Source of the DNA: Owenia fusiformis
Lineage: Eukaryota > Annelida > Polychaeta > Sabellida > Oweniidae
Assembly: GCA_903813345.2 (NCBI GenBank)
Contig: CAIIXF020000006.1
Location: 19,661,936-19,725,935 of the forward strand
Direction: 5' to 3'
Length of the DNA stretch: 64,000 nt
Below are positions 13,501 through 64,000 of this stretch, piece by piece. Within the stretch, counting starts at the first letter, position 1, and each line of letters starts with the position of its first letter. The notes below the pieces were generated by a model that had not been told where the DNA came from, made no database searches, and saw only the letters and a program-made list of their open reading frames with translations. The translations under genes and the position numbers were made by a program.

Positions 13501-16500
13501 TTTAGCTGTATGTGGGGGCTAATGTTCAACCAGTGGGGTGCTACTAAACAGCCCTTTAATATATGCACCCTCAAATTAATGTGTCTGCTTAAAAGTCCTT
13601 TTTTATTCAAGTGGGAAACCAATTAAAGTGGCTGATTATTAATGAAGCAGAGTCTGTTATTTTGGTAAACAATCTCAGGTTCGACTTTGATGTGGTTTAA
13701 TGGCCAATATAGATGATGTACCTGATTATAATGAAGTAAAACGATATCCAACATTCATCATTTTTTATCGGCTGGTTACTTTGAAAAAATGTTTCTGGAC
13801 TGAATTAAAGTGTTGTGCATTTTAGTAAATGTTTGGACATTAGTAGAAATGTGTTTGTATTTTCTTAATTGGTTTTGGCTGACTGGTCTAATTCACTTCA
13901 TTTTGAATATAAATTCAGAATGAAATTAAAAAATTGTGATTAAGTTATGATATTTATGCCTTGTAATAAGCCACTTGCTATATAGATTGAAATATAGATG
14001 GCAGTAGCAATATTTATCAGCCATATTCTTGCCCGTAGCAGGAAGGGGAGCTTTTTCACAGTTTTGGCTTAAAATCATGCGAAAAATTCTCAGAATGGTG
14101 AAAAACTGCATGATTTTGAAATAATTTCTGGCCCCCCCCCCCTCTGGCTACGGGCCTGATATTTGTTAAGAGTTCAGTGAGAAAACTGATACAAGTCATT
14201 TAATTTCTTGATTTATCAAATATTATATGTCCAGTTTTATAAATGTGAAACTCCATGAGCATACAGTCAACTAAATGATCATGGAAAAGGAACCTTTGGC
14301 CAAACAAAATGGAAGAGATTCTGCTGAGAAATTTACAAATTGTATTCATTGATTTTCACTTTAAATTATATGTAATTAAGCTGTGTTTTTTATTTTTTCA
14401 AACATACTAAAACTGCACTGACAAAGAGAACAGAGTAGGTGTACAGTTAGAATGACATTTTACAATATGTAAAAAACTGAAATATGTGTCTCATACTGTA
14501 CGTAATGTTTTCTTGATTGTTTCAGGACTACCCAGAGGAAGTACCCCCCAGGAACAGAGGCGTTAACCCAGAGGACCTTATCAAGACTTATCCAGTAGAC
14601 CCTGAGGGTATCAAGGAGTATGAAGGGCATGGTGTGAAGATCATTGGAGATGAAGTTTTACTCAATGGCACTGAAAGGTTCGTCTCTGATAGCATTCTAT
14701 ATTTAAAGAATAAAGACCGAGATTTTATGATCTATGGCGTTATATATGACCGAAAATTTTATTCTGTTCATTGTTAAAAGACAGGAATCGTGTAGCTATT
14801 GAGGTCTTTGGCAATGGCCAGAATAAAATTTGAGGTCATATATTTGACATAAATCACGATTCTAATATGATAACAGACAAAAGACACAACTATTTGCATT
14901 TCTGAATTTTACCGGTCATACATACTCCAATATAGACTAGTAAATCAATTGTTCTAGCTATTGTGACATCACATATATCATATTAGAATATATAGTATTT
15001 CATAACCATGGATTTATTTACTTATTAATTTAAACATTTATTTCATCTGTGATGTAATGTCAAAATTATAATAATGATATTGTTGCAACTATGGCCTGCA
15101 TCATTTCTAATGCTCTTAATATAAGAATAGATGAAACAAAATGCATTGAATAGTTTTCCATAATTATGATCATTTGAATGTCACTATTTGTACTGATTTA
15201 TTTTGGTATATGTATTTGACTAGAGGTATATTTTCCTTAGGCTGCTGGACAAAGACATCATACCTGGGATGAGGTGGATTAGGGTGGCACAAGTTTTCTC
15301 ATTTTTCTTTTTACTGGTTTATTTGGGTCTATGTATTTGACTAGTGGTATATTTTCCTTACAAATAGGGTGCTGGACAAAGATACCTGGGATGATGTGGA
15401 TTAGGGTGGCACAAGTTTTCTCATTCATGACAATATGTGTATGTCAGTGTTTTGATCTTCATATATTTATTTTACGCAGGTTTGCAGCTGATGGCATTTT
15501 GACTGAGGACCAATGTAACACCCTCATAGAGCTTGCACAGGTATAGATTTTCACCATCCCTTCTATTTAACATGCTACTTTCAGCATATTGTAGATGTAT
15601 AGGTTAATTGTATTTTAAGAAATATGTGTGTTATTATTAGAATATCCATGTTATTATCGAGGTCATTTTATTGAAAATATTGTGAATTATGATTATTGAA
15701 AATCAGTTATCTGTTTGTGTCTTAAATGTTAAATTGTGCAGAAATGTATTCTATGATTTTCCAGAATACTTTGCTTTGCTGGATTTAGGCTTGCTGTTCT
15801 TTTTTGTTATATGTACAATGTAGTGATTATATACAATATTCCATCTATTAGAAAGCAACAATTGGCGATGGATATAAATCATTAAACAAACCAGGGACGT
15901 CACCTCATACAAGTCATGAGATATTTGCAGGACTCGATGTTACTAAGGCTTCTGAGGTATAAATCTATCACCATGGAAACTACACTGCTGTTGTTCTAGC
16001 TTATTCTTAGTTGTTGTCACGTGGGTGCTTTCATAGTTACATCTACAGGGTTGCTTTCATGATTTTCTGATTGATTTATAATAGGGATAACAGCCCAAAT
16101 TTTGTCATAGTAAGTCAGCGAGGTCAAAGTTTTGTCAAAGCAGATGATAAAATTATTGTGACACTTATCTAGTTAATGAAAACACATATTGTCACAGTAA
16201 TCAAATAATTCAACAAGCAATCAATAGCTGTTACTATGAAACTGACTGTTGTCATGGAGATATTATAATGGTGTTGTCTGATGGTGTATGAATGTTGTCC
16301 TATCAACAACTGTTTCAGTGTTCATTCTTTTAAAGGGTACTGCCTTGATAAGGATATGAATTAACTACTGGCAAAATACTTTCAAAAGTGGTAAAATCAT
16401 ACTTTAGATCTTAGTGGAATTTTCCAATTTTATCCTTGAGTGATAAGGCACATCCCTTATAACACTACACTATATCTTCACACTACACTATATCTTTACA

Positions 16501-19500
16501 ACTTTCAGCAATCTTACTCTGTAACATATCATAAGATGACATGATATAAATAAATCTGCCAGTTAAAAACTATTTCATGGTCCTTACAAAATAAATATGT
16601 AGATGTATAGAAAATTAGAACTGACATAGCAGTATTTTCTTTCAATCAGAAAATTTTGATCTTAAATCGTATAAACCATGAAATATGTTCATATTCATAC
16701 ATATTCTTTTTTCTAGGTTAATTACTCCTTTTTTGTACAACACATTTCTTGTTTGTATTTATTCAACACAGGGGCTTCAGACACACTTAGCACTGCACAG
16801 GCTCTTCACTGTAAAATAATGTAATTATAAGCTTTCAGCTTTACCTCTAAAAGGCTTCTATAAGTAAATATCCGATCTGTTAGAGATACCGAAGACTAAA
16901 CATTCTTATTATAGGTTACTAATTATTCCAGAAGGTCATATATGATTCAATTATATCACTCTTATCTCTAAGTGATCCCAATGTTATATTTGGATGTTTT
17001 CTTTAGATTAGTGCCAATATTGATAAAAATTAAAAAAGAAAGCAGATAATTTGATTATAGAAGCTTTATGGATATTTCCAATTCTGGTGTCTGTGTACAT
17101 AGTGATGCAACCATTTTCATTTTGACTATTGAAATGAAAATGTTGTATATCTTTTTTCTAGTGTCTTACATTAAGCTCCAATGACAACCCTCGTAGATTT
17201 CCTTTATGTTTGGACTGGCTTGATGTAAGACTATTCTTTCTCAGTATTTTTCTTTGGAGTTCACTTTCATCACCGTTTTCTTGTTTCTCATTCTTCGGCT
17301 TTCATTTGTAACTATAGCAGGGGTCTCTTTTTGGTGATGGGTACAAGCAAAGCAAGGTGAAGGGGTCTCCACACACGGAGCATGAGATGTTTGAAGGTCT
17401 TACTGTCATACGTTCAGCACAGGTATACAAATTCTAAAGGAAGCATTACAAAACTAAAGGTCCTGAATAACCCATGTTTTAAGACCATTATTGATAAACT
17501 AAATGCTTTTGTTCAGTTTTTGCAAATCATTTCTATTAAGCCATTGAATCAACCAAGATGTTCAGGCATTGAGATAACTAAACATTTTAACATCTTTTGT
17601 AAAGAGATTGGACTTACCAAAAGTTTCAGTTCAGAATAAACCAAATTCCAGCAACATTTGTGTAGTCCAATTTATTTATTTTGATTTACCAACATGGGAA
17701 TTTTTATGTCACCACCGCAAGTGGTGACATATTGTTATAGTCTCCAGCTTTTTTGGATGGTGTTCATCATTCAGTGTTCGGTGGTCAGAGTCTACAACAA
17801 ATAGCAAGTGGTGACATTTTGCATGTTAATGCCTTGTTTATATTGTCTCTATCTGATAGGAGATGTATATGTACATGTAGGGATAGTGAATGTTGTCCAT
17901 ACTTCAAGTCATCTGGATTTTAAAAGCAATTATACGTTTTCTTTTTCTTATCATATTAACTCATACTGTAGTCATTAAAATTGCCCATATTTTTAAAAAA
18001 TTGAATCTCACCTAAATTTCAAGTCTCAGATAGTTGATACTTGTAAAATGAATGTGCATATGTTTTTTCACAGCTTGCTCAGAATGCAGATGTTGATCCT
18101 GAGTGGGTACAGCTGTATTTAGATGTGGCTGACAAGGCAAGGGATCTTGCAAGGAAGTATTTTGTTGGCGATAAACCACTTTACTTTGACTTCACCCATC
18201 TAGTCTGCAGAACTGCATTGGAAGGTAAAACATATTCTCAACTAATCAAATAACATCAATGCAATGCATTTTAAATTTAAGACGAAGTGTTGATTATGAA
18301 CAATGTTTATAAACTATTTAACCAATTAAATTATCTTGTATCCTCTCTTATATACATATATTATTATACCATACTCATTGTGCATTTCGTAGAGAATATT
18401 GTAAATGAAATAACCAAGGGGCCTATTGTAAGGTGAGTCATGCTCTAAATCGTCACGGTGAAACTTGCTCATCTTTAAAGATGCTTATTACTGTGTAAGC
18501 GTTCTGTTTATCAGAGTCCTCTTCATCTAATGCTGGAGAGGAAAGTACTGTGCCCCATGGCCCCCCATGGGCCCCCCCCATGGGCCCCCTGGATACGCCA
18601 ATGGATCAGTGTATTCTATGTCATGAATTACAATATATCAACATTATATTTCAGGAGGAATAAACAGAGAGGATCTAAGCCACCCTATACATGGGGATAA
18701 CTGTCTGTTACTCCCTGATGGAACTTGTAAGAAAGAGAGACCAGCATATGTACAGAGAGACTACAGGTATGGTGAAATTCTATGGCAGCATGTATATTGT
18801 ATATGTGTGTATTTTTCTCTCATCTTTATTTTAAGACAATACACTCATACCTTCATGATTCATTTTGAACCAGTGAAAATAACATGTCTAACTTAAGGTA
18901 TGCATTTTGATGGAACAGCCTCTAATTTGAGAAAGAATTATTTGATTACAATTTTTTCCCTGAATGTTTAAAAATCTTTGAAGGGGATCACTGTGCAGAA
19001 TTAATGATTCATACATGACCGCTGTTCGAAATAGGTGATGCTAGAATAGCACAGTACATCGCAATGTTCAGTACTGTTTACAGCGATGTACAGCGCTTCA
19101 AGATTATGTTGCAGATTGGGGGTGTATGGAAAGAGCCAAACACTATGAAATATTTTGATCAATGTTATTTGCAAGCTATCTCATCCTAAGACTACTTTGA
19201 GTTAACTCAAGATTGGACTTGTGTTTCAGTGCTTTGGTGTACTTGAATGGCGACTTTGAGGGAGGAAACTTCATGTTCAACTACCCCAATAAAACAATTC
19301 AGGTGAGATATACCACAAAATAGATTTGTAGTTTACAAGTGTTAATGTGTTCATAGGCGTAGCCAGGGGGTGCGATTGTTTTATTTGAAGCTTCTAGCTC
19401 AAATTTGAAAGATGTTTTTTGACTCGCTTATGTCACAATTGCACCCCCCCCCCTGACTGAAAACCCCAAATTCTTTTGGCAATCGCACCCCGCTGACTGA

Positions 19501-21560: not shown

Positions 21561-21764
21561 ATACACAGAGCAAATGCTATGGTATAAAAACTTTTGATCT
21601 CAAGAGATTGAATCTGATATAATATCATATTATTGTTATACTGTACTATATATCTACTAATATAATGATACATATATATTTAAAATGCATTTAATATATC
21701 AAGTATGTATGTATATTGCTTATATTGTCAAAGTAGTGCTTCATTAAATGAACAATTCGTAGTA

Positions 21765-22513
21765 CAGGGTGTTAAAAAAAAACGCAACCCAAAGAAATCG
21801 CTATATCTTGGAAAATACTTATCCAATTGTGTTCATTTTTTCAGGAAAGAAAGAAGAGACTATGCGTGTGTAGCTCCTGCTGTTAGTTAGTTGTAAAACA
21901 TGATGTTTTGGACACCTTCTCAAAAGACATTAGTATTGGAAAGATACGAAAAACGCAACCAGAGGTGACTGCCAGAGCAATAAACCCTAATAACTTTCTA
22001 ACCATGGTGTTTTGGCACTTCAGATTCACCACAAATTATCTTCATATAATGTGTAGTGAATTGGGGGAGTTTCATTAAAATCACTCCAGGGACTTTACAG
22101 TCATGGTCAGAATGCCTTCTTAAGTCTGGCTGAACCAGGGTGTTTGACTGGGTTTTGAAAGCATTTCGACCAAAACTGTAAAGTCCCTGGAGTGATTTTG
22201 ATTTCACTCTACAGATTTATCATACATTGAATGAAGATGATTTGTGCCAAATTTGAATAGCCAAAACACTATGGTTAGAAAGTTATTTGGTTTTATTGCT
22301 GTGGCAGTAGTCTCTGACTGCGTTTTTCGTATCTTTCCAATACTAATGTCTTTTGAGCATTTGTTCAAGGCATCATGTTTTACAACTAACTGACAACATG
22401 AGCTATACATACACAGTCTCTTCTTTCTTTCCTGAAAAAATGAACACAATTGGACTAGTATTTTCCAAGATATAGCGATTTCTTTGGGTTGCGTTTTTTT
22501 TTTGAACACCCTG
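21765..22513. mobile_element. Foldback element with about 345-bp inverted arms, TA target
   Basis: Starts TA|CAGGGTGTTAAAAAAAAACG and ends as its inverse ...AACACCCTG|TA. The arms match along almost the whole element (ACGCAACCCAAAGAAATCGC, AGACATTAGTATTGGAAAG, CACTCCAGGGACTTTACAG), leaving a spacer of about 60 bp at 22111-22175. TA flanks and CAGGGTG ends suggest a non-autonomous Tc1/mariner-type element. No transposase was recognised. Confidence 0.85.
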
Positions 22514-22620
22514 TACATTGTATGTAATTAATAATGTAAATTTAGTTAGTCATTCTTTATGAATAAAAATGCTTTTTGTTTACAACAATCAAAATATAGG
22601 ACCTAGCAAATCTGCAAATA

Positions 22621-31742: not shown

Positions 31743-32171
31743 ATGTCGTACATGCTCCAGCATCTGAACAATGGATGGCAGGTAGACCAGGCCATTCTCT
31801 GTGAGGAGGAAAGATTGACAGTCATTCGTTTTGGTCATGATTGGGACCCAACATGTATGGCCATGGATGAAACACTTATGAATGCAGCTGAGAAGCTGAA
31901 AAATTTCTGCATCATCTACCTCGTGGACATTACAGAAGTACCAGACTTCAATAAAATGTATGAGTTGTATGATCCCTGCACAGTGATGTTCTTCTATCGC
32001 AATAAACATATAATGATAGATCTTGGTACTGGAAACAATAATAAGATTAACTGGGCTATGGAGGACACTCAGGAGTTCATTGATATTGTAGAAACTGTCT
32101 TCAGGGGCGCAAGGAAAGGGCGAGGTCTTGTTGTGTCTCCGAAGGATTACTCAACAAAATATAGATACTGA
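31743..32171 (+). CDS. TXNL4A: Thioredoxin-like protein 4A (Dim1, U5 snRNP 15 kDa protein), single coding exon
   Basis: 142 codons, exactly the family length, from MSYMLQHLNNGWQVDQAI to the invariant C-terminus VVSPKDYSTKYRY. The thioredoxin-fold signatures IRFGHDWDPTCM, YLVDITEVPDFNKMYELYD and NKHIMIDLGTGNNNKINWA are intact. The protein is a core U5 / tri-snRNP component needed for pre-mRNA splicing in the nucleus. The coding sequence has no intron, whereas the human gene has introns within the coding region. It also differs from the human protein at about twenty sites by my reckoning, more than I expect for so conserved a protein. No disabling change is seen. It could be the main gene with lost introns or an active retrocopy. 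Confidence 0.97.
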   Translation: MSYMLQHLNNGWQVDQAILCEEERLTVIRFGHDWDPTCMAMDETLMNAAEKLKNFCIIYLVDITEVPDFNKMYELYDPCTVMFFYRNKHIMIDLGTGNNNKINWAMEDTQEFIDIVETVFRGARKGRGLVVSPKDYSTKYRY

Positions 32172-35368: not shown

Positions 35369-38300
35369 TTATATTTTTTCTGGCTTTCTTTTTCGTAGAT
35401 TATACCTCTGATTTACTGAGTCACGATCACTATGTCTTGCCCCGTTGACTTCTTTAGTTTTTCCATTGACAGCGGTAGTTTTGCTGTATTTATTCACATA
35501 AAAGTTTGAGAACAGACACACGTGGGAAAAGGAGTATGCAATGAGTGCGTATTGATATACGTTAGGGTAGCCACAGTCTGAATAGATGGCATATGTGGTA
35601 TGGAGAATAACTGCAAAAAACTGCGCCTGGAAATAGAATAATAATTCGTGGTCAAAAATGCATTTAATGTGAGAGGGGATAAATAATTTTAAAAAGTTGT
35701 ATACAGTTTATGAACTTGGCTGAGGTTTTTCTTTTGAGAAGATGCACATAAATATGACCATTGCCTTATAAACAGTATATATGTTGGCACATAAGACTAA
35801 GTGCCAGTCCAACACCTGTTACACTTAATCTGGGCCAACTTGGTTTTCAAAATATGTAGGAAAAGAATGTGAAAACTCGTCTGTGATTCAACACTTATTT
35901 GCTTATATGATATATGTATTAATCATATGACATGTTACACTGTTATACCAATACCATCAAATAATCTTATCATTGATTTGAAGTTACATTGGAAGTCTCC
36001 CAAAACATAGTCATTCAGCTGAGTCTCTAAGTAAACAAAGGACTCAAAGCTTTCAATGAAGGATAATACTAAAATTTAAACTTTTTGAATTGATATCTAA
36101 AATGTCCATACCAGCTGTAGAACTGTCATATACTTCTTCCACCAGAGGTATTTCTGTACTGCAGGCCCCAGAGCTGAGAGCAGATAGTAGCTGTACATAA
36201 CAACATGAACGCCACAGTTCACTGTAGCTGAGAAATATGCTGAAATATGAAAAACATATATCATGATCTTAATATATAAATATGATCTCATACACTGTAT
36301 GATACAGTGTACTTTATGAAAAAAGTGATTCAAAATGATGAGAATTTAAATTTCTTTAATCTCTTATTTCATTAAAGCAAAAATTAGACTGGTGGCAAAA
36401 TTGTGAGCAATGATTCCAACCATTGCAGGGGCGGATCTGGGAACCAACAAGGGTGCCCAAAGTTCTGGTCTGAGAAAATAACCAAAAACTGGGCCTAAAT
36501 TTTTGAAATTTTGAGGCCCATTTTCTTCAAAATTTGGCCTAAAATGAAAAAATAAGGCCTTAGAAGGCCCATTTATGACCAAAAAGGCCCACTTTTTGCG
36601 GCCAATTTTTTTTTCTGGGCCCTCCCCAGATCCGCCAGTGCATTGTGGCCGTTACCATTATAAAAATATTTGATCCCGGAAAGATAATTAAAAACTTACA
36701 TTCACCACCTGCGACAAACTTGACTCCAATCCACCAGAGTATGAACATGGTAGAATGGTGGTAGACATGTAAGAAAGTAATCTGGCTGTCTTTCTTCCTC
36801 AAGATGAAGAATATGGTATCGAGGAACTCAACAAACTTGGAGAAATAGTACCACCATATCACAGCAGCTAACTGAAATTAAAACAGGTGACCATGAAATG
36901 AGGCCAATTTAACATAAAAGGGATTTTGCTTTCACTCTGTCAAACTTTATCATTTGATCATTTTATTACTTTTGTTTGAAGTATTTACAAGTCAAAGAGT
37001 TAACAGTTGTATAAAATGTATACGAAATGTAAACTCACATTTAGTGATGGAAAATGAAAATGAATACAAACAATATAATGTGCAATATGAAGGACTGGAC
37101 TTACCCTTTTGGCCATTGTGTTGTTACTGTAGTCCACAGGCTGACATATAATACTAAACTCTTGACTTAGGACAGTGGTAAATGCAAACTGCAATAAAAT
37201 CATTGATTTACAGTACTTTAATTCACTGACAGTGTGATTGTTGACTAAAGGGGAATATAGTGAGACCTGTATGTATCCAAACACCTCTGTAATCGGAACA
37301 CCTCTCAATCTGAACACTTTTTGTCTGTACCTTTGGTATCTCCCATTGACTTACATATTTAAATAAACTTGAAATGTGAACAGAACACCTGCTAATCTAA
37401 ACATTTTTGGCTGATACCAGTGGTGTTCAGATTAGACAGGTTTAACTCTATATTTAAAGCTTTTTTCAATTACAACAGTTCTAGATTTCGTGTCTTACAC
37501 CAAGAATAAGAGACTGAAGAGTTATACTCCACTGTTCTTCATTTTGTTGAATATGAGGATATTTGGGATAAAGCAAATACATTATTTTGATCAATGTACT
37601 GTACTGTATTATTGATACACTTAATTTGACGCTACTTAATTTGGCGGATTTGCTCCATTTCAAATATTGGGGGCTATTTAATTTGGCGGAGTCAGAACTG
37701 AGCTCAAGTTTTATCATTGATCTGAAAATAAGCCTTTCAGATTCATGTATTATACTTAAAGTAAGTCTTGGTATAGCACTGACATCCAAATACAGAATAC
37801 TTATATTAGTGAAATAATTGCAAAGTACAAATTCCTTGTTGATTTTCCAAAATAGATTTGAAAATTGGCGCATTTTTAAATTGGCAGATTTTTTCAACCA
37901 TCAAATTAAAACGGTAGCCATTTAATTATCTTCATGCAGTACTTGAGATTTTTGTCAAAATTGGCATTTAAATAGAATCTCAGTCTTTATCCAATAATAT
38001 AGTAATTGAGTCAAATTGACTAAAGCATACCTCAAAAAACATCCAAATTGAGAATAAAACCAACATGAGATTGTATCCAATCAGAAGAGGTCTGAGATTC
38101 AGTGCTGGGTACGGCTTCATGAGGCCTGGTCCATACTTCACGAGGCAAAGATACAGAGCAGTCAGGATCAAAGTTGGCCATGGTGACCCCATAAATAACC
38201 ATTCTGACACCCTAGGGTCTGGAAATAAAATCAAAAAATGTAAATAAAATTATGATTTTTATACAGCTAGTAACTTTCTCTTGTAAGCCAATGATGTTAT

Positions 38301-47360: not shown

Positions 47361-48252
47361 ACACCCTTGGTATACGCAGCTAACGAAAATTGACCGGTAC
47401 GGGTCAAAAGCTGGACCGGTACGGGTTAATGGTTTTATTTGAATTTAAAACAGCCATAACTTGCTCAATATTGACTTCCTCGTGTCTAATTTGAAATATA
47501 TGATGCCTCCCGATGCTTTTAAGTACCCCAATTTTTTACAGATTTTTAAACGGACCAAAACTCTCTAAATGCGCATTTATGCTCTTTTCTCTCGAGAACG
47601 ACTATCTCATTTTCACGATAACTTTTATTTAGTACTTCTAACATATAAGATCTATTTTTCCCCATCAAGGTATGATGTAAATGACATGCTATTTGCATCT
47701 TGTGAGTTTCAATGACCCGCGTTTGATTTTATAAAAAATGCCAAACTTTGTGACAAAGAATTTCATCCTGCTTGCAGCGAGAAGACGGACCGGTTCGGGG
47801 CAATCTGCTTGCAGTGAGAAGACGGACCGGTTCGGGGCAATAGCTGATGAAATTCTTTGTCACAAAGTTTGGCATTTTTTATAAAATGAAACGCGCGTCA
47901 TTGAAACTCACAAGATGTAAATAGCATGTCATTTACATCATACCTTGATGGGGAAAAATAGATCTTATATGTTAGAAGTACTAAATAAAAGTTATCGTGA
48001 AAATGAGACCGTCATACTCGAGAGAAAAGAGCATAAATGTGCATTTAGAGAGTTTTGGTCCGTTTAAAAATCTGTAAAAAATTGGGGTACTTAAAAGCAT
48101 CAGGAGGCATCATATATTTCAAATTAGACACGAGGAAGTCAATATTGAGCAAGTTATGGCTATTTTAAATTCAAATAAAACCGTTAACCCGTACCGGTCC
48201 AGCTTTTGACCTGTACCGGTCAATTTTCGTTAGCTGCGTATACCAAGGGTGT
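47361..48252. mobile_element. 892-bp near-perfect palindrome with equal 407-bp arms
   Basis: Left arm 47361-47767 begins ACACCCTTGGTATACGCAGC. The right arm 47846-48252 is its reverse complement with only scattered mismatches. The 78-bp spacer holds two copies of a 37-bp direct repeat (47768-47804, 47805-47841; each contains GAAGACGGACCGGTTCGGGG) plus AGCT. Each arm also carries ACCGGTACGGGT twice near its outer end. No coding capacity and no clear long target duplication. A non-autonomous foldback transposon is the simplest reading. Confidence 0.88.
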
Positions 48253-49495: not shown

Positions 49496-52400
49496 ATGGA
49501 GCTTCTCAGAGGAAACAAATTCTTGGTGATGGAGGTGGTTCGCGACAAGTGGAACCATTTCCAAGAATGGTACGATTGGACACATACGTTTGCAGACAAA
49601 CGTGTCGAGAACTGGTTCCTCATGCAATCATATACCCCTACCCTGGTTCTTACGGCCCTCTATCTATTTTCCATATGGGCAGGGAAACGTATCATGGCAA
49701 ATAGGGAGCCGTTCAACTTCAAATATATCCTGTTTTTATATAATATGGGCCTCGTGGGACTCAATGCTCATATAGTATACGAAGTAAGTAAAATCTTCCA
49801 TTTATCTAATATCCGTATACTAATAATATTATTTCTAAAATATAATGTAAAAATCTACAAATATAGACGAAGATACACAAATATTTCAAAATTGAGAAAT
49901 ATTTTACAATTTTTTAAAAAATTTTGTTAAACAGGGAATACCTGTGCATCATTCACATGTGACAGGTGATGTTTCATGAGCCTTGGAGAATTTATTAAAG
50001 GCCTCATATAAAGTTTAAACCACTTATGTTGAAGTCTTACCCATGTTATCAAAATTAATATGTGGAATCTTTTTAATTTAATGATTTTTTTAGAAGGTTG
50101 AATAATTGTAGCGTACAACTTTTTAAGTCATATCATAGATTATATTTAGATGGTTAAACAATTTTTTCAAACTTTGCCTTGGGCCTTTACTAAACCCTTA
50201 TTTTTCCTCAGGAGTTTAATTCTATGTTTTTCTTGTTTTATTTCCAGTTGCTCACCTGTTCAATAAGACTCAACTACAACTATTTATGTCAACCAGTAAA
50301 CTATGATCCAACAAATGAGCTTGAATTAAGGGTAAGTTCATATCTCATTCTCATCTCACAATTTCAGGAGAAGTGTCTTGGCCCTCTTCAACACATAAGT
50401 TCATATCTCGTTCTCATCTCCCAATTTCTCCCTCAGGAGAAGTTTCTTAGCCCTCTTCAACACATAAGTTCATATCTCGTTCTCATCTCCCAATTTCTCC
50501 CCCAGGAGAAGTGTCTTGGCCCTCTTCAACACATACGTTCATATCTCATTCTCATCGCCCAATTTCAGGAGAAGTTTCTTAGCCCTCTTCAACACATAAG
50601 TTCATATCTTGTTCTCATCTCCCAATTTCTCCCCCAGGAGAAGTTTCTTAGCCCTCTTCAACACATAAGTTCATATCTCATTCTCATCTCACAATTTCTC
50701 CCCCAGGAGAAGTGTCTTGGCCCTCTTCAACAGATAAGTTCATATCTCGTTCTCATCTCCCAATTTCTCCCCCAGGAGAAGTGTCTTATCCCTCTTCAAC
50801 ACAATATGTATCAAACTCAAAAAATTTATATAGTAGGGTTGCTTAAAGGAATAATGAAACTTTATCTGCATTAAATTTTTGATAAGAATCATTTGTCTTG
50901 AGAAGCTTCCATGCAAAACTTTGAACAACCCTAATAATTTATAAAATTACATTATTTATTCTTAATTTTACATATTTTCAAGTTGATGTTATTCAAAAAA
51001 TTACAAAAATGCCAAAAATGGATAATGTGACTAATTTTTACCCTATTTATTGAATTGCAAAAAGAGGAATATGTGTACACAATTAATTGCTTTAGTCTAC
51101 CATGGCCTGACTCTTAATTTCTTTGGTTTCAGATAGCAAAGGCATTGTGGTGGTACTACTTCTCAAAGTGTATAGAATTTATGGACACTATATTTTTTGT
51201 GCTTCGTAAAAAGAATAATCAAATCTCATTTCTACATGTGTATCATCATGCAACAATGTTTCCAATATGGTGGTGCGGGGTCAAGTGGGTTGCTGGAGGT
51301 CAAGGTGAGTTATGGATCAAGTGCATATCTACCATTAAACTTATCTTCATAGTTCATACCTATGGAATTTTGTAAATGCTTACTTATTTAAAGGATTTGT
51401 AGCGTATTGTATGTTTTGTATATTATTGGTAAAATGTTTTATTATTACAGAAAAACTTCTCACATTTTCAAATAGATCATCTTATAAAGTAATAGTCTCA
51501 AACTTTGTCATCCCAAAATGATAAAGTCTCAATAGTCTCAAACCAAGTTACATATTGCACTCATAACATTAACTTGTTCCCTTTTCAGCTTTCTTTGGCT
51601 CTATGATCAATTCATTCATCCACGTCCTAATGTATGGCTACTATGGGGTATCTGCACTTGGAAAAGAATACCAAAAATATCTTTGGTGGAAACGTTATCT
51701 TACCGTCCTACAACTGGTAAGTCTTATAAAAGCAAGTTTCATGTAACAGCATGCATAATTGTCTATAATCAAATTACCCATAATGCAACATTTTATTTTC
51801 CATTATCCAATACAATAATTTAATATCGCAAATGTGACACTTTATATATTATGAGAGCTTTTGGATGGCTTATATATGATGTAATAGGATATAGCTTATA
51901 ATAGAAAGCTTTTCATTAGAAAGAGCCACTATTAGCACTTCACTATTGTTTCATTTCAAGAGAGCTTTTTCCAAAGTTGTCTCTCCAAAACCTTTTCACT
52001 TCTCCAAAAGTAGTTATCCCAAAAATGTTTAACCATTCATGCATTTAGCATTCAGTGTTGAGTTTTGAGCTACATTTTCATTATGATATTATATTAAGTA
52101 CATTGTATGTATTTTAACCTTATTTGTAGATTTAATTTAAAAATATTCCCATTTTCAATTTGTTCATATATATTTTGATTGATTTGTCTATAGTATTTTG
52201 AATGCTGTCTAGGTACTCAAAAAACAACACCAAATTTATTAATAAAACCAGGCAACAGTATTGAACATTTTATTTAGTTAACTTTTAAAAGCACATTTTG
52301 CTTTATGAGGCCAACTTGCATGCAGCTCAAACGCCATGTGGAGCATTTCAAGTGTAAACCAACGTGATTTATCATTTTCTTTACCTCCCCATTATATACA

Positions 52401-55400
52401 GTACATCCCCAAGGAGGATTGGCCCTCAGGACATGCCCATATATGGCAAAAATATTGACGTTGCACTTGGGAGCCAACCCTCCTTGGTACATCCCTATCC
52501 TAATTCATCCTATCCCACAGCTCTGCCTTTTAACATACATGCATAGTGTCTGTTGCTATATGTTTTTACTGCATGTGTTAAAAATGTGTGAATTCTTGTC
52601 TTTATCTATATAAGGGGCATCTTTTACTGTCTTCGCAAGTCAGCATTTCTTCGCCAACTAATTCTGAGTGCTCAAGCAGTGTGCGTTCTTATACTAAACT
52701 ACCTTTCACTGGGTAAACCCCATTCTATCTTACATATTCAATTAATAAATTCAACATTATTTAAAGTCAATGTAGTTTAAACTCTTGTAGTGAATACTTC
52801 TGTAGGTAGATTGAAAACCTGAGTTTAATTTCTTCATTTGAATTGTAAACTTTCTAAATCTTCTAATATATGTATTCCATTTATTGTATACTGTTATTGA
52901 CAACTAGTGGTTATGGGCTTGTATAATTAGAAGAGTTTTAACATGTTGTATTTTGTCTTTATTAACACTCTTGTATAACAATTAATTAGCAAGCATTTAG
53001 GTAAATATGTATCGACTAGGAATCTAATATAGCCTTGCCTACTAATGTCTTAGAAATAGAAAGAAAGAAACTTAAATCTACTTATAACATGATTTTTCCT
53101 TGTATAATATACTAACATGTAATATGTAGTAGACATTAGTCATATTATACATAACAACTAACATAGTCACGCATCTCTTTAAAATGTTACGAACAAGAGA
53201 TTTTAAAAAATGATCCCATTAAAGTCACTCATCCACTTGGACCCGTTCAATTATGAGCTGATTTATCAAGGTGGGTGAAAAAGTCTCAGGTGGCAGATCT
53301 GGCATTCCATTGTAAAATTGAAACATACAAAAAGTTTGACCCATTTTGGGCCCATATTGAAAGATGGGTCTTCTCCCATAATTTATGACGCTTGGAATTT
53401 GATTTGTCTAATCTGATATTATGAAGATCATTATGACAGTCTTTGAAAAATTCAAAGTACATGTACTGTACTTGCTTAGAAAATGAATTCAGACTATCAT
53501 TTGGTATGCATATTTTTGTACTTACAAAGTAACATTCGATGAATCGCTTGGTTTATGCTTAAAAGCATTGTCTATTTGCAAATATGGCATCAAAATAGTG
53601 AATTAGACAGTATGGATTATTGTTATTTATACGCATGATAATTATATGCATGATAGGCATTAATTAGTATTAAAATATCAGTTAAATGTACTACTTACTT
53701 ACTCACATAAAATGTTTACACATAACACACAGTATCCTCTTTAACGGCGTGTTACCATATTGTTCTTGTTTGTAAATATAAAGTTTGCTGCATACAAGAG
53801 GAGGGAAAACCCCATGATTCAATTGATGACATACGATTTCCTCCTTCGCGCACCTCCTTTTGTCGAAAACGTACCCTCCATCTTGGTTTTCAAAGTTTCC
53901 AAATTGACCTAGTTTTAAACCAATCAACGATCGACTCGCTAAACCAATCAGCGACGATGTTATCTCAATACAGATTTACATTATAAGCGTATGTCATCTT
54001 TGAACCCTGGGGTTTCTCCCCCTCTTCTGCATACCATACTTTGTTCACAACAAACTGGAACAAAAATGGTGGGATGCCGTTGCAAGGAACAGTGTGTCAT
54101 GTAAAGCGTAATACAATAATATGTGACCATATTAAACTGCAAGATAACTAGCATGGCTTAACTAATGCACAGTTAAAATTGTTAAGTCAAATTAAAAATG
54201 AATACTATGATAGGTATTGGGTAAAGCTCATAACCATAGGGGTATCCTAGAAAATATATTGTCTATAGGTAGGACTAAATTTGTAGTTAGACAAAACACA
54301 AATATGAAGATTATTTTTATTTAGCTCATCTGTAGGGATGAATTGAATAAAAAATAATTTTTCATAGCACTTTTGAAATCAAGAAAGTACTATTTCAATT
54401 TTCTATTATTTTCTGGGATACCCCAACCTTGCATGTAAATTAACAGTATACATAAATGGAATGCATGTGGCTTTGGGTGCAAATTGCTTGCTTTCCCATT
54501 CTAGATCCAATTCTTTATTGGCATGGTTTACTCCCTGCAACACATGGTGTTTGATTGCCGGGCGGCCCCCAAGTGGTTCGGTCATGTGGGTCTGGTTTAC
54601 GGTAGCACCCTAATAGCCTTGTTCATGAATTTCTACATAAGAACCTACACAAAATACGGCAACAAAATACTCAAACAAGTCAAACAAGTAACCAAGGTAA
54701 AATTATTGTACTCTCACATTGGGTGTGTCATGAACACTGTGGTTGTCCATGATTCCAGTTGGGTGGCTCATGACACACCCAGAGAGCTGAAGCTGCATGG
54801 ATATTGGAACAACGGAGCAAGGATATCACGGGAAGTCTACAACTAACGGATGTTTGAATTTAAAGCAATGTGTGTCAAGTACTATAGGGAGTTAGGCCAG
54901 TGATATCCCGGTGTTGTTGATTCCAATATTGATGCATTTGAAGCAATTTGATTGACTTTTGTCTCTTTTATTACTCTAATAGATCCAATTTGTTGCGGGA
55001 ATGTTACATGCTACAAACTCTCTACGTGTTGGATGTAATTTCCCAGAATGGATGCACTGGGCACTAATTGTGTATGGAGGCTCGATTCTCAGCCTCTTTC
55101 TCAACTTCTATTTCCACGCTTACATCAAGAAATCCATTAAGAAAACCATTAAGGTACAATACAAGTATAAACAATCTTACCTTTGACCTGACTCGACAAC
55201 TTTCTTCTTCAGTGATGAATGAGAGTGTTTTTTATTTATAATAATTGGACTAGTTTTTATGTCACCATCACAAGTGGTGACATATTGTTATAGTCTCCAA
55301 CTTTTTTGTGGATGGTGTTTGGCATTAGGCTGTTGGTGTCTGTAACAAATGGCCAGTGGTGACATCTTGCATGTTAATGCCTTTTTTGGTAATTATTAGT

Positions 55401-57325
55401 GTTACAAAATTCATAATGAGACCAGTGCCCAAGTTACAAGTGCACAACCATACTGACTATTAGTGTTAGTCAGGTATCAGGTTCTAATACAGTATATGGG
55501 AGATCTCCATATTTCAGACATAGAAATTTAGATTTATATAACCTATCTTAACAATTGCCCATTTGAATATAAAATACTCCGACGTTAGAGTTTAAAAATT
55601 CCCAAGTCAAAAATTAAGTTTAAAAGAAACTGTTGGTGTTTGGGATTTGTTTTGAATCTATTTGTACTGGGCAAACAATAGCAACAGAACACAATAGCTC
55701 ACAATTTAGAGTTCAATATATGGGTAGATAAAAAATGTGTGTTAATAAAACCGAAATTCTATGAGTGATTGTCAATACGTCGGGTGATCAATAAGTAATG
55801 GACGCTTTTTTACACAGATGCTTTTTATAGACCAATCCCTTCGATTTTCTTACCAGTGATACATCATTCAATTATCTATCAACTCTGAAGATTTGAAGAC
55901 AAAATATACAATACATGTTGATATATCCTTATTTTCGTGAAGGAGGTACAGGTACCCCGGGACCGACATTTACGTCACATATTCTGAAGCTATTTTAGCT
56001 TTTTTAACATGTAATGCAGTTGAATGCAGGCTGAACAAAACAAACCATTATGGTCATGAATTACCCCATTTTGTTTTGCCATAGTTGTTTTTGAATATTT
56101 TATCATCACTATGTGGTATTCATGCCACATTCATTCCACAGGGCCCTCTAAATAGGTTCCATCAAGTGCTACATGTACACAATTCCTCATCCTCTTAACT
56201 CAAGATTGTGAGACACGGCTGAATCCATTCTCTGACATGGTAGCAAGATGCAGTTGCACGAGTTGTTTTATCATGTTTATTTCATCAATGTCAATAAACC
56301 TGCGTCCTTTCTCTAGAAATAAATAGTATAGAAATAAACAAGTCACATGTGAGCAGATCTGGACAATATGGTGCATTGGCCAAGGGCTAAATTTTGAGGT
56401 CCAGGGATATTGTTTTCTGAACATTTTGAGATCTGTGGGCAGGTGCATTGTCCATATGGAGTAGGGTGTTCCCTTCTCTCACCACCCCTTTCTTCCACAA
56501 TTCTTTCTCAAATTGACCTGCAAATCCCTTCCATACAACACTCTGACATCACAATACAATTCTGTTTATGTGTTACCAGTCAGCAAGAAATTTCAAACAA
56601 CACAACACTTGTTGCATATAAAAAGTTCCAATCTAACTGAAATTTACCAAACTGGCTAAAAACTAAATATGTGACGTAAATGTCAGTCCCGGGGTACCTG
56701 TACCTCCTTCACGGAAATAAGGATGTATCAATATGTATTATATATTTTGTCTTCAAATCTTCAGAATTGATAGATAATTGAATGATGTATCATTGGTAGG
56801 AAAATCAAAGGGATTGGTCTATAAAAAGTATCTGTGTAAAAAAGCGTCCATTACTTATTGATCACCCCTCGTATATTTGATTCGGGGCAAAATACATTAT
56901 TTTTATTTATATGTGTTCTTAACTACAGTAAATACTAAACATATGTTAAAAGGAGAAGCATTCATTGTAAATACATTTTCAATTGATTTGATCGATATCC
57001 GAAACATAACTTTTAGAATACTGAGTTTAAATCAGTTTTTAAAAACATACATGACTTCAATGATAGCTTTAAAGTCAACAATCACTATGCCTAGCTTAAT
57101 TTGATTTACCAGAATTCAGTAATATAATTTTTAAATGTGAAAAATGTTTTCCTTAAAGATCATGATTTAACTTGTTGTTTATTTCAACTTGAATATTAAA
57201 TAATATTTTGTGTACTTTTTTAGAATGCTGCCAAACAGGGTAAGGAGTTGAAGGCCACTCAAGATAAGTTAGCCAACAATAATGCAGTAGAAGGAGAGAC
57301 AGATGATTGCAAGAAAACACAATAA
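49496..57325 (+). CDS. ELOVL4: Very-long-chain fatty acid elongase, ELOVL4-like (copy 2), with duplicated alternative exon
   Basis: Exons: 49496-49783, 50248-50331, 51133-51304, 51589-51716, then 54505-54696 or 54983-55153, then 57224-57325. With the first cassette the product is 321 aa, with the second 314 aa. Signatures: [23 protein letters not shown], catalytic HVYHH at residues 159-163, [17 protein letters not shown] and [15 protein letters not shown], closest to ELOVL4. The tail ends CKKTQ, a KKxx ER-retrieval signal. The enzyme condenses malonyl-CoA with very long acyl-CoAs in the ER membrane. The ATG lies 10 nt after an acceptor, so at least one upstream non-coding exon is expected. 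Its first coding exon is unsplit where the - strand paralogue has an intron. Confidence 0.95.
50332..50802. repeat. 63/69-bp tandem array starting at an ELOVL4 5' splice site
   Basis: Seven copies (63, 69, 69, 63, 69, 69, 69 bp). The first base is the G of the GTAAGT donor at 50332. Each unit has AAGTTCATATCTC, TCTCATCTCCCAATTTC, a CAG|GAGAAG acceptor-like site and CCCTCTTCAACA. In units 2-7 the donor-like site is altered (ATAAGT or ATACGT). All unit lengths are multiples of three, so the frame of the upstream exon stays open through the array to 50874. I read this as intronic repeat, not coding. Confidence 0.88.
52410..52486. mobile_element. Short deletion derivative of the hAT-like MITE
   Basis: Ends CAAGGAGGATTGGC and GGGAGCCAACCCTCCTTG match the element at 41481-41779, and the interior shares ATGCCCATATATGG. 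It is flanked by GTACATCCC at 52401-52409 and 52487-52495. Only 77 bp long. Intronic in the + strand elongase. Confidence 0.9.
54505..54696 (+). CDS. ELOVL4: ELOVL4-like alternative exon 5a
   Basis: 192 nt, phase 0 at both ends, acceptor CATTCTAG and donor AAG|GTAAAA. It starts [14 protein letters not shown] and includes [13 protein letters not shown] and [14 protein letters not shown], then a Lys-rich end. It is colinear with exon 5b and with the last membrane region of elongases. The two exons share IQF, P(K/E)W, YG and (M/L)NFY but differ at most other positions. Confidence 0.9.
54721..54937. other. Two inverted repeats between the alternative elongase exons
   Basis: Stem 1: GGGTGTGTCATGA (54721-54733) pairs perfectly with TCATGACACACCC (54768-54780). 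Stem 2: 54793-54829 pairs imperfectly with 54900-54937 (TGCAT, ATATTGG, AACAAC and GGATATCAC matched by GTGATATCC, GTTGTT, CCAATAT and ATGCA). Both lie inside the 286-nt intron between exons 5a and 5b. They could be splice-regulating RNA structure or remnants of small palindromic elements. Confidence 0.6.
54983..55153 (+). CDS. ELOVL4: ELOVL4-like alternative exon 5b
   Basis: 171 nt, phase 0 at both ends, acceptor TCTAATAG and donor AAG|GTACAA. It encodes [32 protein letters not shown] and [13 protein letters not shown], then Lys-rich KSIKKTIK. Its PEWMHWALI block is closer to vertebrate ELOVL4 than that of exon 5a. Only 286 nt separate it from exon 5a. Using either cassette keeps the frame into the terminal exon at 57224. 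Confidence 0.9.
55257..55385 (+). repeat. Dispersed GTCACCAC-family repeat, full copy
   Basis: TTTTTATGTCACCATCACAA, GTGGTGACATATTGTTATAG, TCTCCAACTTTTTTGTGGAT, TGTCTGTAACAAATGGC and GTGGTGACATCTTGCATGTT in order. The best-preserved example of the family. It lies in the last elongase intron. Confidence 0.8.
55778..56871 (-). mobile_element. Mariner-type element relic with long terminal inverted repeats, TA flanks
   Basis: Outer ends GGTGATCAATAAGTAATGG (left) and CCATTACTTATTGATCACC (right), flanked by TA at 55776-55777 and 56872-56873. The terminal repeats extend about 200 bp on each side (CAATCCC, AATGATGTATCA, GGTACAGGTACCCCGGGAC / GTCCCGGGGTACCTGTACC). The middle carries a broken - strand transposase remnant (about 56300-56470). 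It lies in the last elongase intron. Confidence 0.85.
56300..56470 (-). pseudogene. Degraded mariner (DDD/D) transposase remnant
   Basis: The - strand translation shows [11 protein letters not shown], matching the second catalytic aspartate block, and about 30 residues later PYCPDL..CDLF, matching the third. An in-frame stop lies between them, further stops follow, and most of the gene is absent. Inactive. Confidence 0.75.
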
Positions 57326-63039: not shown

Positions 63040-64000
63040 TGGTATTCTATGTTAGATCCTAGCATCCAATGTCAATCCTTGTGTTCAATGTTAATCGCTA
63101 CATTAATCCTCAAGTTCTATGTTAATCCCTGTGTTCTAAATTTCACCTTCATGTTCTTTGTTAATCCTCGAGTTCTATGTTCACCTTCATGTTCAATGTT
63201 AATCCTCGTGTTCAATATTAATCCTCATGTTCTATGTTCAATATTAACCCTCAAGTTCTATGTTCACCTTCATGTTCAATGTTAATCCTTCTGTTCAATA
63301 TTAATCCTTGTGTTCAATATTAATCCTCGTGTTCAATATTAATCCTCATGTTCTATGTTCAATATTAATCCTCAAGTTCTATGTTCACCTTCATGTTCAA
63401 TATTAATCCTTGTGTTCAATATTAATCCTTGCATTCAATATTAATCCTCATGTTCTACGTTCAATATTAATCCTCAAGTTCTATGTTCACCTTCATGTTC
63501 AATGTTAATCCTTGTGTTCAATATTAATCCTTGTGTTCAATATTAATCCTCGTGTTCAATATTAATCCTCATGTTCTATGTTCAATATTAATCCTCAAGT
63601 TCTATGTTCACCTTCATGTTCAATGTTAATCCTTGTGTTCAATATTAATCCTCGTGTTCAATATTAATCCTCATGTTCTATGTTCAATATTAATCCTCAA
63701 GTTCTATGTTCACCTTCATGTTCAATGTTAATCCTTGTGTTCAATATTAATCCTTGTGTTCAATATTAATCCTCGTGTTCAATATTAATCCTCATGTTCT
63801 TTGTTCAATATTAATCCTCAAGTTCTATGTTCAACCTCATGTTCCATGTCAATTTCCATGTACTATATCAATCCTCATACCCTATGTTGATCCTCAGTTC
63901 AAGGTTAATCCTCACGTTCTATGTTAATCCTCACGTTCTATGTTAATCCTCACGTTCTATGTTAATCCTCACGTTCTATGTTAATCCTCATGTTCTATGT
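63040..64000. repeat. Higher-order tandem array (AATCCTCATGTTC monomers), runs off the window
   Basis: Monomers of about 19-20 bp, GTT(A/CAATATTA)ATCCT(C/T)(A/G)(T/A)GTTC. The marker TCAAGTTCTATGTTCACCTT recurs at 63251, 63372, 63474, 63595 and 63697, with a near match at 63818. Spacings therefore alternate 121 and 102 bp, a 223-bp higher-order period. The last 100 bp is a purer 19-bp array (TTAATCCTCACGTTCTATG). Confidence 0.9.

Follow-up and report, generated by a model that had tools for sequence, protein, structure and literature searches.

The forward-strand fatty-acid elongase gene in this 64-kb stretch of the Owenia fusiformis genome (the window, analysed over its full 64,000 nucleotides) raises the question of whether a single locus may supply two enzymes by choosing between two versions of the exon that encodes the end of the membrane domain. 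By its conserved sequence features, the encoded enzyme is an animal-type very-long-chain fatty-acid elongase that is ELOVL4-like. The gene spans positions 49496-57325 on the + strand, and its parts, together with a second elongase gene on the opposite strand, are as follows.

49496-49783, + strand: exon 1, with the start codon, 96 codons, placed by translation and splice sites
50248-50331, + strand: exon 2, 84 nt, with the loop-2 cysteine; an exon of the same length is present in the minus-strand paralogue
51133-51304, + strand: exon 3, 172 nt, with the HVYHH histidine box
51589-51716, + strand: exon 4, 128 nt, ending in LQL in the middle of TM6
54505-54696, + strand: cassette exon 5a, with 64 codons; it runs from the lumenal half of TM6 through loop 6 and TM7 to a basic stretch
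54697-54982, + strand: intron between 5a and 5b, 286 nt, with two predicted hairpin domains (54712-54785 and 54786-54944)
54983-55153, + strand: cassette exon 5b, 57 codons, for the structural segment equal to that of 5a
57224-57325, + strand: exon 6, the common C-terminal tail with a CKKTQ end and the stop codon
35369-39257, - strand: elongase paralogue of 304 aa, divergently transcribed

All six introns between adjacent exons, as well as both skipping junctions, have GT-AG boundaries, and the two cassette exons are both open, in phase 0-0, and begin with IQF. The protein would be 321 aa long with 5a (isoform A), 314 with 5b (isoform B), 378 with both and 257 with neither, all in frame; because both cassettes are multiples of 3 and their joint inclusion or skipping leaves the frame intact, the reading frame does not enforce exclusivity. 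Each of these details of the original prediction (coordinates, 64 and 57 codons, phase, IQF starts, splice sites and the lengths of 321 and 314 aa) was reproduced, and its central claim, that an ELOVL4-like gene holds two alternative coding cassettes, is borne out at the sequence level by homology and by the match to the ELO domain. The HXXHH box required of ELO/ELOVL elongases is present as HVYHH in exon 3, and the loop-2 and loop-6 cysteines (C96 and C225 in ELOVL5) can be aligned in both isoforms, the loop-2 cysteine of exon 2 being the expected partner of the cassette cysteine. The CKKTQ end of exon 6 is presumably a KKXX-like ER retrieval motif. Intron 2 contains a tandem array at 50333-50803, made of a 69-nt unit repeated 7 times with 89% matches; the array begins just inside the donor, and a 226-aa open frame encloses it.

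The evidence that both cassettes belong to the protein is their homology and not their openness, as open frames of this length are unremarkable (at the stop frequency of the 64-kb window, a run of 64 codons stays open with a probability of 0.013 and one of 57 codons with 0.021). Compared with each other, 5a and 5b give a blastp E value of 2.0e-6, with an identical residue in 21 of the 57 aligned codons. Compared with the Pfam ELO profile (PF01151, 242 positions), 5a alone matches positions 183-239 with 27.6 bits (E 2.6e-6), just above the cut-off of 27 bits, and 5b alone matches positions 183-241 with 38.9 bits (E 9.1e-10). The match of the protein without either cassette ends at position 182, exactly where both cassettes take over; hence the whole ELO domain is present in both isoforms, with scores of 220.8 bits for isoform A (1-239) and 231.9 bits for isoform B (1-241), against 184.3 bits when neither exon is included. 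Both isoforms also align with human ELOVL7 (6y7f) beyond TM7, the remaining PDB sequences among the matches listed having E values of at least 0.3. In an all-against-all comparison of frames of at least 30 aa across the window, with E up to 1e-3, there was no third copy of the cassette: apart from the match between 5a and 5b, the cassettes hit nothing but the terminal exon of the elongase on the minus strand, and tblastn returned the same three places among the matches listed. The two cassettes are adjacent homologous exons of equal phase, which is one of the features expected of a mutually exclusive pair.

It is informative to examine what these exons encode in light of the human enzymes. Transmembrane labels follow the published ELOVL topology, and the human comparison comprises five ELOVLs (1, 2, 4, 5 and 7). 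In an alignment with these five, the swapped segment starts at the lumenal half of TM6 and goes on through loop 6 and TM7 to the basic stretch, with the exon boundary in the middle of TM6, between the LQL that ends exon 4 and the IQF that starts each cassette. The prediction that the exons offer two versions of the last membrane region thus holds, but the exchanged unit is larger than the last helix alone, as it includes the second half of TM6 and loop 6. All nine cassette columns that are invariant in the five human sequences are kept in 5a and all nine in 5b, among them the QF and the loop-6 cysteine, and the hydrophobic peaks at the places of TM6 and TM7 are retained in both. The more diverged copy is 5a, which has the lower Pfam score and one additional residue in loop 6, and which has Y at a position where 5b and human ELOVL1, 2, 4 and 7 have H and ELOVL5 has Q. 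The basic stretch after TM7 differs as well, with 18 residues in one cassette and 12 in the other.

The assignment to ELOVL4 is putative and goes by the best local score among human ELOVL1, 2, 4, 5 and 7. ELOVL4 comes first for the constant part of the protein, where 129 of 223 residues are identical (score 710; next ELOVL2, 585), and for 5b (25/47 identical, score 132; next 80). For 5a the same comparison gives 19/47 identical residues and a score of 89, a small lead over ELOVL5 (80). Relative to human ELOVL4, the gene differs in that the segment comprising half of TM6, loop 6 and TM7 is present as two exons, with a phase-0 intron before the tail. The minus-strand paralogue is informative in this respect. 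Its internal exons measure 84, 172 and 128 nt and its TM6 boundary falls at LQL, all as in the forward-strand gene; unlike the latter, the paralogue has an extra intron near the N-terminus and carries the segment and the tail in one undivided terminal exon (35369-35626), of which the all-against-all comparison of frames in the window showed no second copy. The intron that lies between membrane segment and tail in the forward-strand gene gives a layout that permits a cassette swap. As far as the gene model and alignments can tell, this ELOVL4-like gene has one copy each of exons 1-4, which take the protein from its N-terminus to mid TM6 and include the histidine box, and of exon 6, which supplies the cytosolic tail. 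What lies between, the last membrane part, has an exon apart from that of the tail, and a tandem duplication has left this exon in two copies, 5a and 5b, both intact and long diverged.

What would two such versions be for? The reading that we regard as best, and as probable, is that 5a and 5b are spliced in a mutually exclusive manner and that the products differ in their acyl-length limits. One cassette would be included per mRNA, giving an enzyme of 321 or 314 aa; the two isoforms would have the catalytic core in common and differ at the lumenal end of the acyl tunnel, a difference that would set different limits on chain length (or unsaturation), and the choice of cassette would be made by tissue or condition. 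The parts of this reading are not equally secure. That 5a and 5b are used alternatively is very probable, and one-at-a-time use is the likely form of it because each cassette alone completes the ELO domain and inclusion of both would duplicate the TM6 half, loop 6 and TM7. That the isoforms differ in substrate limits is, from sequence comparison, an even call, and a change in chain length is made plausible by published work on TM6, loop 6 and TM7. Excerpts of PMC10449689 describe this region as important for substrate preference, citing yeast caliper work (Denic and Weissman 2007), state that the C96-C225 disulphide closes the tunnel at its ER end, and report a shift in preference when W231 of rat Elovl5 is replaced by the cysteine found in Elovl2 or when the opposite exchange is made (Gregory 2013); according to PMC4746653, lamprey Elovl2 gained some C22 elongation (2% conversion) at the expense of C18 activity when it carried W231C. 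By alignment, ELOVL5 position 231 falls within the cassette segment. If the proposal is true, membrane-lipid chain length would be switched directly by splicing. Gene counts are the usual measure of an elongase repertoire, and a gene with a swappable segment that sets length would provide two enzymes per locus that could escape such counts; it would also put the caliper model to a natural test, through two enzymes that are identical outside the stretch from the lumenal half of TM6 to TM7 (with loop 6) and the short basic stretch that follows.

The alternative that survives best shares this reading up to its final step: the exons would be used alternatively, but what sets the isoforms apart would be stability, regulation or the binding of partners, not chain length. 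The difference in the basic stretch after TM7 speaks for it, whereas many of the differences between 5a and 5b lie in the end of TM6, loop 6 and TM7, which the published excerpts tie to substrate choice; we consider it a serious minority possibility.

Next in standing is the idea that 5a is a relic, with the working enzyme made from 5b, and with 5a either spliced in seldom if at all or yielding an inactive product. Consistent with this, 5b is nearer to human ELOVL4 and has the higher Pfam score, and the 5a donor lacks a G at +5, though the 5b donor lacks it likewise. However, 5a is fully open, has GT-AG sites and keeps every invariant residue including the cysteine. By codon position, 5a and 5b are identical at 24/57 first, 40/57 second and 14/57 third positions; third positions are at the level of chance, or randomised, implying an old split, while second positions are conserved above chance, implying lasting coding constraint. 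The value of dN is 0.63 (NG86), and dS is not computable, so that dN/dS has no usable value. Stop codons would be expected to accumulate in an exon long out of use; of 2000 neutral simulations (run to the observed nucleotide identity, started from 5b and restricted to aligned codons), only 10 left both frames open and none reached 21 identical residues, the maximum being 17. That no neutral run attained the observed protein identity indicates that both copies have long been under coding constraint, and both are almost certainly coding. The simulation bears on history, and one copy, 5a for instance, may have fallen out of use very recently. Taken as a whole, the relic explanation is unlikely.

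The two weakest alternatives concern how the exons are joined. Constitutive inclusion of 5a and 5b would give a 378-aa protein with a duplicated unit of TM6 half, loop and TM7, and although this is in frame with all phases 0, it would put a second IQF segment after a basic cytosolic stretch, and the two exons match the same profile positions, each alone completing the domain, so we regard it as highly improbable. Equally remote is the notion that read-through of the 5b donor makes 5b the end of a short mRNA form, for which there is an in-frame stop beyond 5b (frame 54983-55186) and an AATAAA at 55744, but against which stands an acceptor downstream of 5b with an in-phase tail exon and its KKXX-like end. 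No AATAAA or ATTAAA is present in 54505-55743, which makes 5a unlikely as a terminal exon.

Returning to mutually exclusive use of 5a and 5b, it is worth considering which signals might govern the choice. The cassette donors (GTAAAA for 5a, GTACAA for 5b) have no G at +5, whereas all nine other donors of the two elongase genes do (Fisher p 0.018, a value that is indicative only because the pattern was noticed after looking). Such weak donors might allow regulated inclusion, though we give this step less weight. The 286-nt intron between the cassettes has a predicted folding energy of -91.5 kcal/mol, compared with an average of -71.4 for its shuffled versions (z -4.25; 0/200 shuffles as stable), and its two hairpin domains leave 15 nt at the donor side and 38 nt at the acceptor side. 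A branch-like TTGAC, with its A at 54955, sits in a small predicted 3-bp stem, and the predicted fold would put the 5a donor ~26 nt from this A. The splicing machinery is not known to act across so short a distance between donor and branch point. Folding of the short intron could thus bring the 5a donor near the 5b branch point and hinder splicing of 5a to 5b, again a less secure step than the others. The strong fold is, however, not special, as such folds are common in the 64-kb window: of 223 segments of the same size, 12 reach a z of -4.25 or below, and with 25 shuffles, where the intron itself gives -7.2, 5 of the 223 score lower still. Exclusion of joint inclusion enforced by the modelled hairpins is therefore doubtful, and the fuller proposal, in which a folded intron blocks joint inclusion and splicing switches the chain-length ceiling through the exon for the closed end of the tunnel, is one that we offer tentatively, at somewhat less than even likelihood. 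Rfam gave 0 matches at the gathering threshold, and the inter-cassette intron has no second copy in the window, where its only matches are of 25 nt or less. Twenty-one inverted pairs among the matches listed are candidates for pairing between distant introns.

Several foldback elements lie within the window. Between 5b and exon 6, a 1.1-kb element at 55775-56874 has 209-nt inverted ends that are 94% complementary and a weak internal DDE_3 match (E 0.077), and looks like a degenerate mariner-type transposon. Upstream of the forward-strand elongase is a foldback of ~0.85 kb (47384-48229) whose translated arm pieces are 90-100% identical, and another is found at 21763-22527, with arm pieces of 74-92%.

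Exon pairs of this design are familiar from other genes. The 3A and 3B exons of SLC25A3 are a mutually exclusive pair that arose by tandem exon duplication, and 5a and 5b resemble pairs of that type in being adjacent homologous exons of equal phase that would swap one membrane segment; the difference is the host gene, which here is a fatty-acid elongase. Among elongases, the eloB and eloC genes of Platynereis dumerilii (PMC11286186) likewise form a pair of Elovl4-type genes that share a scaffold but not an orientation; they differ in having eight exons each, eloC with a KH domain, and the main text makes no mention of splicing. Crassostrea gigas has an Elovl4-like protein with two isoform names, X1 (298 aa) and X2 (295 aa), which PMC4550275 gives as separate sequences without exon structure; they may be a lead to a similar swap in an oyster. 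In the open-access literature among the matches listed, represented by titles, abstract openings and excerpts, no elongase with alternative TM6/TM7 exons is described: the available part of PMC11750391 (sea urchin) has no mention of splicing, isoforms or exons, that of PMC4579836 has bond splice forms that encode one same protein and no alternative-segment case, and that of PMC8315507 has no elongase with such exons.

A search for relatives gave 2 candidate stretches in viral contigs, of which 0 were confirmed, and 73 in genome contigs, of which 1 was confirmed. The latter, L001:3528-3620, is an exon-4-like stretch that is 55% identical to the forward-strand gene and 73% identical to the minus-strand paralogue, with a GT donor at the equivalent place. 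Stops upstream and the GT donor, in what is recorded as an Acidimicrobiales MAG, suggest eukaryotic contamination, and within the 8620 bases of this contig there is no cassette-like stretch better than E 0.07.

The forward-strand elongase is not the only gene in the window with a duplicated exon. A second in-gene pair on the + strand, 15852-15956 (105 nt) and 17321-17422 (102 nt), is 48.6% identical over 35 aa (E 3.6e-8), and its host is a prolyl-3-hydroxylase-like gene; the best PDB match of 17321-17422 is prolyl 3-hydroxylase 1, weak when taken alone (E 1.1), and a later exon of the gene has a 2OG-FeII_Oxy_3 match just below the cut-off. This pair is probably the first duplicated-cassette locus of the original prediction, which had counted two such loci and proposed that exon-cassette diversification may be common in this genome. 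A second in-gene pair is indeed present, but genome-wide commonness does not follow from a single 64-kb window.

Elsewhere in the window, a DIM1/TXNL4A-like protein is encoded at 31743-32171 in one uninterrupted frame of 142 aa (Pfam DIM1, E 9e-66, profile 1-133 of 133). At the window's end, 63103-64000, lies a tandem array of 45 copies of a 19-nt unit (73% matches), with a higher-order period of 223 nt (96% matches).
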